The translations under genes were made by a program, and so were the position numbers. Shown piece after piece: positions 36,614-38,366 of a stretch of DNA of 38,366 bases (position 1 is the first letter of the stretch; each line of letters begins with the position of its first letter). The DNA is from Singulisphaera sp. (GTDB taxonomy: Bacteria; Planctomycetota; Planctomycetia; Isosphaerales; Isosphaeraceae): positions 1 to 38,366 of the forward strand of contig DAIDJG010000002.1 in the NCBI GenBank assembly GCA_027451445.1, given 5' to 3'. The notes under the pieces were generated by a model that searched no databases, was not told the DNA's origin, and was given only the letters and a program-made list of their open reading frames with translations.

Positions 36614-38038
36614 ATGTCGAGCGGCTTCGACGCGAGTTCTCTCCGAATCGTCAAGGATGCCACCTGCACAGCCTGCGGATGTCTCTGCGACGACATCATC
36701 GTCTCCGCGACGGCGGACCAAATTGTGAACGCCGAGAACGCGTGCGAGACCGGCCGACACTGGTTTCTCGCCGATCGCGCTCGTCCGAACCACGCTGAGT
36801 GCTGGATCGGTGGGAAACCGTCCCCGCGCGAAGAGGCTATCGCGCATGCGGGCCAGCTTCTAAGATCCGCGCGTTCCCCTCTGGTCTTCGGCCTTAGCCA
36901 ATCCGTATCCGAAGCCACTGCGGCGGCGCTGACACTCGCCGATCGAATCGGCGCGATCGTGGATGCCGACCTCGCTGGAAATGCTACAGACCGGCTGCGT
37001 GCCTTTCAGCGCGTCGGGCGTGTTTCTGCGACGCTCGGCGAGGTCAAGCAGCGTGCCGATGTCGTCGTCTTCTGGGGCGTCGATCCCGTGAAGACGCATC
37101 CGCGGCATTTGGAACGCTATTCCGTCGATCCCGTGGGGCGATTCGTCCCCAGGGGACGCGCGCAGCGGACGGTCATCGTCGTCGACGAGGAGCGGACCGC
37201 GACCGCAGACCGAGGCGACGTGTTTGTGCGAATTCCCAATGCCACGCGCTTCGAAGCGCTTTGGGCGCTACGGGCGATTGTGAAGAGTGTGGCGCTCGAT
37301 CCGGATCGGGTGGAGCGTTCGACGGGAGTTGCTCTTGCGGATCTTGACCGGCTCGCCACGCGACTCAAGGCGGCGCATTATGGAGCCTGGTTTTTCAGCG
37401 CCGCGCATCGTGGCCCCGCCGAGGAGGAGGCCGTGCTCACGCTCGTACGAGACCTGAACGCGCCGAAGACCATGGCGAATCGAGACCCGGCAGGAGACAT
37501 CGGAGGCTCCTGCCCACCCCCCCTACCCCCCCTTCCCAAGGGGGGGAGTTATTTGGCTCCTGAGGAGATTGATGCCCGGACATCGCACACCCGATTCGTC
37601 GCGATCACTCTCGGCGCACGGGGAAACCCTGCGGGCGCCGAGGCCGTGACGACTTGGCAAACCGGCATCCCTTCGCGTGTCGACTTCAGCCAGCGGGCTC
37701 CCCGCTTCTGGCCAGGCGAAACCTCGGCCGAGGCTGTCCTCGAGCGCCAGGAGGCGGACATCGCCGTCGTTCTCACCGACGACATCCCTGCGTCGTGGTC
37801 ATCGGAAGCGCGCGCCCAACTGGGGCGAATTCCCCGCATCGCGATCGGCCCAAACCCTGATATCCAGGCCGCGGTCGCTCTCGTGTCGGCGACGATGGGC
37901 ATTGATGCCGGTGGTTCCGTGATCCGCTCGGATGGCGTCACATTGCCCCTCCGGCCTGCACTCAACGCGCGATTCCCGACCGATCGCGAGTGGCTCCAGA
38001 TGCTAATCGAACGGCTCGACTCGGACACCACGCCATGA
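36614..38038 (+). CDS. fhcB: Formyltransferase/hydrolase complex subunit B (formylmethanofuran dehydrogenase B homologue)
   Basis: This 474-residue FwdB/FmdB homologue has the N-terminal iron-sulfur motif C18-x2-C21-x3-C25 (TCTACGCLCDDI) with a fourth Cys at 44 (NACETG). Later segments match the family: ADVVVFWGVDPVKTHPRHLER, RTVIVVDEERT and RFWPGE. The region holding the tungsten/molybdenum ligand Cys in methanogens has no Cys (DADLAGNATDRL), as expected of the bacterial Fhc complex, which hydrolyses rather than reduces. About 35 residues near 283-320 look inserted and contain a C-rich palindromic repeat. The stop overlaps the fhcA start (ATGA). Confidence 0.93.
   Translation: MSSGFDASSLRIVKDATCTACGCLCDDIIVSATADQIVNAENACETGRHWFLADRARPNHAECWIGGKPSPREEAIAHAGQLLRSARSPLVFGLSQSVSEATAAALTLADRIGAIVDADLAGNATDRLRAFQRVGRVSATLGEVKQRADVVVFWGVDPVKTHPRHLERYSVDPVGRFVPRGRAQRTVIVVDEERTATADRGDVFVRIPNATRFEALWALRAIVKSVALDPDRVERSTGVALADLDRLATRLKAAHYGAWFFSAAHRGPAEEEAVLTLVRDLNAPKTMANRDPAGDIGGSCPPPLPPLPKGGSYLAPEEIDARTSHTRFVAITLGARGNPAGAEAVTTWQTGIPSRVDFSQRAPRFWPGETSAEAVLERQEADIAVVLTDDIPASWSSEARAQLGRIPRIAIGPNPDIQAAVALVSATMGIDAGGSVIRSDGVTLPLRPALNARFPTDREWLQMLIERLDSDTTP
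37513..37549. repeat. C-rich palindromic repeat inserted in frame within fhcB
   Basis: The core CCCCCCCTT-CCC-AAGGGGGGG (37526-37546) makes a 9-bp stem with a three-base loop. It is preceded by a second C-run joined by TA (37517-37525). It encodes the low-complexity PPPLPPLPKGGS segment of FhcB. The composition is unlike the surrounding coding sequence and looks like a mobile extragenic palindrome that kept the reading frame. Confidence 0.75.
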
Positions 38039-38366
38039 GCACGCTCAAGATCGCTGGTGGACGCGTCTATGACCCTACTCATGACATCCACGGCACAGAG
38101 CAAGATCTCTGGATCGCCAACGGCAGAGTGATCGCGCCACCAAATGATCCAGGCGCCAGGGCGGACCGGACGATCGATGCACGAGGGTACGCCGTGATGC
38201 CCGGTGGGGTGGACGTCCACTGCCACATCGCCGGCTCGAAGGTGAACGCGGCGCGCGCCCTTCGTCCTGAGGAAAAACGCGGCGCCGGCGTCCCGAGACG
38301 GTCCGGGCGACGATCCGGCACGCTCGGCAGTGTGCCCAGCACATTCACCACGGGATACGCTTACGC
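38035..38366 (+). CDS. fhcA: Formyltransferase/hydrolase complex subunit A, N-terminal part (runs off the window)
   Basis: The first 110 codons of an amidohydrolase-superfamily protein homologous to FwdA/FmdA. The start LKIAGGRVYDPTHDIHG, the VMPGGVDVHCHIAG zinc-ligand HxH motif and NAARALRPEE are typical. In the bacterial Fhc complex, subunit A releases formate from formyl-methylofuran. Translation is coupled to fhcB by an ATGA overlap. The remaining roughly 80 percent lies beyond the window, so intactness cannot be judged. Confidence 0.93.
   Translation, partial: MSTLKIAGGRVYDPTHDIHGTEQDLWIANGRVIAPPNDPGARADRTIDARGYAVMPGGVDVHCHIAGSKVNAARALRPEEKRGAGVPRRSGRRSGTLGSVPSTFTTGYAY

Follow-up and report, generated by a model that had tools for sequence, protein, structure and literature searches.

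An in-frame insertion in a planctomycete fhcB gene as a probable partial copy of a dispersed palindromic repeat resembling Rickettsia palindromic elements

How might a conserved enzyme gene come to hold a palindromic repeat within its coding sequence, and still keep an open frame through it? The question is raised by fhcB (36614–38038, + strand) in a 38,366-nt stretch of Singulisphaera sp. DNA, the whole of which is called the window here. By sequence and predicted fold, the product of this ORF (474 aa) is FwdB/FhcB, subunit B of the formyltransferase/hydrolase complex. The model TIGR03129 (formylmethanofuran dehydrogenase subunit B) is matched at E 2.5e-96 over two separate stretches, the score of 322.8 bits lying slightly under the curated cut-off of 327.8. 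In PDB comparisons by sequence and by fold, the product matches FwdB (5t5i, 8rja) and FhcB (6s6y); the sequence alignments to solved FwdB chains likewise fall into two stretches, with the break at the insertion site described below. The contig ends within the gene after fhcB (window 38036–38366), which resembles fhcA and has an amidohydrolase-type start, MSTLKIAGGRVYDP.

The first-pass annotation had placed about 35 extra residues at 37463–37587, with the reading frame preserved across them. Alignments to a same-genus genome (G001), within a 13-member set, and to 109 homologues delimit an in-frame insertion of 41 codons (123 bp; 37463–37585, + strand, boundaries uncertain by a few bases), across which the two halves of fhcB are indeed joined in frame. 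The insert makes up FhcB residues 284–324, following a helix that ends in RDLN and preceding the strand TRFVAI, and the peptide it encodes includes DPAGDIGGSCPPPLPPLPK. An FhcB match is present in 52 of 58 relatives, usually as two alignments, the first stopping near residue 283 and the second resuming near 325; in G001 the two flank alignments abut exactly (5033|5034) and residues 284–324 are absent, i.e., this is an empty site. All other sequences of the 13-member alignment have a 41-column gap here, with the junction LN|xTRFVA. Opposite the insert, nearly all of the 109 homologues have 0–3 residues; the exceptions are two sequences with 7 and 9 and three with 17, whose extra residues the aligner probably placed there. 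None of the 109, the same-genus one included, has an insert of the 41-residue size, and the Pro-rich loop is thus not a conserved part of planctomycete FhcB.

The relatives' genes have peculiarities of their own. In the FhcB/FwdB of four planctomycetes (L054, L055, L057, and L060; codon at locus 1843–1845), an in-frame TGA stands at the position of a metal-ligand cysteine (SL*HGP vs. SVCHGP) and the frame continues beyond it; on sequence grounds these are candidate selenocysteine proteins, and an Rfam search of the TGA-containing loci gave no SECIS-type match. The FhcB of genome G047 (L036) has a different dispersed palindrome, GGCCCCCTTCCTGAAGGGAGGGGGAGAG, in frame at another site (near residue 225), with 18 matches in that genome.

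The AlphaFold2 model of FhcB, made with 37 homologues, has a mean pLDDT of 84.2 and a pTM of 0.80, and its top matches in a Foldseek fold search are 8rja_B and 5t5i, followed by the Methylorubrum FhcB 6s6y. Residues 287–312 and 317–322 fall below a pLDDT of 50, between a helix at 268–282 and a strand at 327–333. The model therefore predicts an intact FwdB/FhcB fold with the insert as a disordered loop, in agreement with the earlier suggestion of a tolerated insertion in a loop, and the insert may well be near-neutral for the enzyme. It could instead be imagined that the repeat-encoded peptide has been co-opted as a functional, selected loop, for instance as an interaction segment; the reading frame is maintained in fhcB, and the same frame is used in many other genes (below). 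However, the loop is absent from all 109 homologues and is modeled as disordered, and the same peptide occurs in unrelated proteins, so that we regard a selected function as very improbable.

Within the insert is a palindrome with a C-run, TTCCCAA, and a G-run, noticed at the outset and located at 37513–37552 (+ strand): the unit CCCACCCCCCCTACCCCCCCTTCCCAAGGGGGGGAGTTAT, with stem CCCCCCC/GGGGGGG and a predicted hairpin of -18.6 kcal/mol, which translates to PPPLPPLPKGGSY in the fhcB ORF. The window contains no other palindrome of this kind. A reading of the hairpin as a known RNA family was rejected, as none of its Rfam matches reaches the gathering score and they resemble artifacts that any hairpin might give (miRNA models).

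The genome as a whole (a 10.88-Mb draft in 622 contigs, with 4.77% estimated contamination) contains hundreds of copies, many of them outside genes. The 19-base center has 144 + 141 = 285 matches with at most two mismatches, and a reversed-pattern control has none; the dispersed element postulated from the single fhcB copy is thus present. It is also very unevenly distributed. A class-wide scan of 297 genomes, allowing at most one mismatch, found 266 matches in this genome, five in same-genus G001, and at most 17 in any other, with the core palindrome absent from 283 of the 297, an expansion at the level of the species. Comparison with named relatives places the genome in the Isosphaeraceae, near an Isosphaeraceae MAG and Singulisphaera acidiphila; the 27-base core had no match in a scan of named genomes, a set in which the source genome itself is perhaps not included. 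No described planctomycete repeat family of this kind was found in the literature searched.

This abundance bears on another account of the fhcB insert, a lineage-specific low-complexity expansion by slippage in the C and G runs, with no mobility involved. Homopolymer runs are prone to slippage, and the outer 65 bp of the insert are not repeat-like, but the 40-bp unit also has positions outside homopolymers (TTCCCAA, AGTTAT, CATCGGA), and its hundreds of occurrences elsewhere contradict this account, which we find hardly credible.

Most copies of the palindrome are not solitary. They form part of a composite element, about 270–324 bp long, in which two palindromes lie in inverted orientation with their cores about 143 bp apart. 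Sixty-one such elements (family A, collected from part of all copies) share a consensus, whose conservation fades some tens of bases beyond the cores, leaving the element ends fuzzy. The usual open frame reads NSPPWEGGVGGVG...CPPPLPPLPKGGSYE; on average 1.39 of the six frames of a family-A element are open. With a 324-bp copy (L252) as the query, the full composite was matched over its full length in the source genome only, and sister genomes gave short degenerate cores. There are variants: five loci (L072, L076, L004, L010, and L017) have two inward-pointing cores 51 bp apart around a conserved center, AAGAAACGCGTGCGCGTCTGTTCAAAC, and a further palindrome, GCGTTAASTTAACGC, lies near the outer ends of some elements (L252, 2415–2429, and 21 other loci).

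Part of the fhcB insert is recognizable as this element. The palindromic insertion had been noted at 37463–37587; by BLAST and a shuffle test, homology to other genomic copies, in the right arm of the composite, is confined to about 37494–37552 (+ strand) and does not extend to the outer parts. BLAST matches mostly begin at 37495–37513 and finish at 37551–37563, and the repeat likeness of 37495–37512 exceeds that of 200 of 200 shuffles, while that of 37463–37494 and of the part right of 37552 is no greater than that of shuffled sequence. The recognizable repeat thus makes up about 58 bp of the 123; the outer 65 bp, without a match to the repeat, may be filler, or element sequence that has diverged strongly. 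From its sequence, we take the fhcB copy to be a partial, single-palindrome relative of the larger two-palindrome element. An 8-bp direct repeat, GGCTCCTG, lies beside the core on both sides (37505–37512 and 37555–37562, + strand). It was considered as a family-wide target-site duplication and ruled out, being absent around other copies; no target-site duplication common to the family was found around them.

At least 12 genes besides fhcB (at least 13 in all) hold an in-frame copy of the family, among them genes for a PKS, an NRPS-like protein (a label assigned by eye), Eco57I-type methylases, a GT87 protein, and PMT-type and other membrane proteins. Those examples with two inverted cores all use the frame NSPPWEGG...PPLPKGGSYE. 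Two of the insertions have empty sites in same-genus G001: that in L252, of 108 codons (324 bp), where the alignments abut exactly, and that in L135, of 90 codons net (270 bp). The Pfam domain match (148–518) of one Eco57I methylase (L134) spans the element. This ORF (L134, on G000:C72) carries two element copies, at aa 93 and 230–278.

In all, 83 sites with enough flanking sequence were sorted by a codon-usage score trained on the source genome, with a threshold relaxed after calibration on window genes. At 12 of them, fhcB included, both flanks are coding on the same strand and in the same frame, and the frame stays open across the element. At five others the flanks share a strand but differ in frame, and inspection places these copies between genes, the upstream ORF ending 48–68 bp before the first core; one site has a stop, and at the remainder at most one flank is coding or the two flanks lie on opposite strands. 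The chance that an insertion preserves the frame, computed from the open frames of family A, is about 0.08 per event; because of this low rate, 12 frame-preserving cases of 13 would be unexpected unless selection filters the survivors, although this ratio is descriptive, as decayed disrupted genes would escape the sorting.

These other genes also speak to the possibility of an assembly or binning artifact at the repeat. The genome is a draft, and many of its contigs break off at these palindromes or close to them; but the flanks of the insert are two halves of one single-copy fhcB, joined in frame, and at least a dozen further genes show the same arrangement, with the sister genome having the empty site for two of these. 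An artifact is accordingly an explanation to which we give almost no weight.

The reading we favor, with a probability of roughly 0.85, is a MITE-like dispersed repeat that behaves like the Rickettsia palindromic elements, of which the fhcB insert is a partial copy. A non-autonomous palindromic repeat would have expanded in this Isosphaeraceae species, inserting into protein-coding genes as well as between genes. Read on one strand in one frame, the repeat often has no stop codon and would encode a Pro/Gly-rich peptide, so that a copy landing in the open orientation and frame would add a probably unstructured segment without truncating the gene. The in-gene copies would then be survivors only, sitting in loops or linkers where they do not disturb the fold, and the fhcB copy, presumably translated, would have retained one palindrome within its 123 bp. 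Mobilization would be by transposition, through an enzyme acting in trans; since the copies share no target-site duplication, have fuzzy ends, and lack a linked transposase, this step is one that we infer. A stronger version, in which the repeat is shaped for life within genes, keeping one frame and orientation open and repeatedly remodeling multidomain and membrane proteins as a natural inserter of disordered Pro/Gly linkers, seems to us rather doubtful.

The in-gene copies offer a set of natural insertion mutants, indicating where proteins may tolerate 40–110 extra residues.

Among known systems, the GTAG/CGTC REPs and REPINs (PMC3733652, PMC3116915) invite comparison; REPs have been reported in Planctomycetes. 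The present family is similar in its short GC-rich hairpins, found singly and in inverted pairs and sometimes within ORFs. It could accordingly be a REP/REPIN-type repeat moved by a RAYT (Y1 tyrosine transposase), with two inverted hairpins as the mobile unit and singletons as remnants: inverted pairs about 143 bp apart occur alongside singletons, the source genome has nine Y1_Tnp genes, and REPs within ORFs are already known (PMC3733652). Against this, none of the nine Y1_Tnp loci, some of them cut by contig ends, has a core nearby except for one poor match, and no RAYT is linked. The hairpin has no GTAG/CGTC tag at its 5′ base: by inspection, it is preceded on the + strand by CTAC, putting GTAG 3′ of it on the other, which appears to be the wrong side for a REP or REPIN. 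The copies are also mostly larger composites, and 270–324 bp is long for a REPIN. We consider this origin unlikely, if worth bearing in mind.

Bacterial MITEs with ORFs, such as ERIC and Correia/NEMIS (107 bp; PMC2229807), are like the favored MITE-like repeat in being small and repeated, with inverted repeats, no transposase gene seen, and in-frame fusions. Where MITEs have defined terminal inverted repeats, this family has inverted palindromes near both of its fuzzy ends, and where they have a target-site duplication, no family-wide direct repeat was found for it.

Rickettsia provides the best-known cases of palindromic elements lying in frame within conserved genes, and these are usually discussed for small intracellular genomes. 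The Rickettsia elements (RPE; Ogata et al., 2000, 2002) are 105–146 bp long (as described in PMC2229807, PMC10969869), palindromic, and dispersed between genes as well as, in frame, within the genes of unrelated proteins (PMC2229807, PMC10969869). The planctomycete family shares this dispersal, with in-frame insertions that have no counterpart in orthologues (fhcB, L252, L135, and the Eco57I methylase L134); like RPE, it favors a single open frame, in which the same peptide recurs, and conserved parts of the host proteins are kept. It differs in sequence, with its C/G-run hairpins, in size (a composite of about 270–324 bp vs. 105–146 bp), in its greater number of copies, and in its setting, a large Isosphaeraceae genome from a phylum distant from Rickettsia. 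By this analogy it would work like RPE, although with another phylum and another composition we claim no membership in the Rickettsia families themselves. That an 11-Mb planctomycete genome harbors a larger and more numerous family, for which a sister genome has empty sites, shows that the phenomenon is not confined to genomes of the Rickettsia type.
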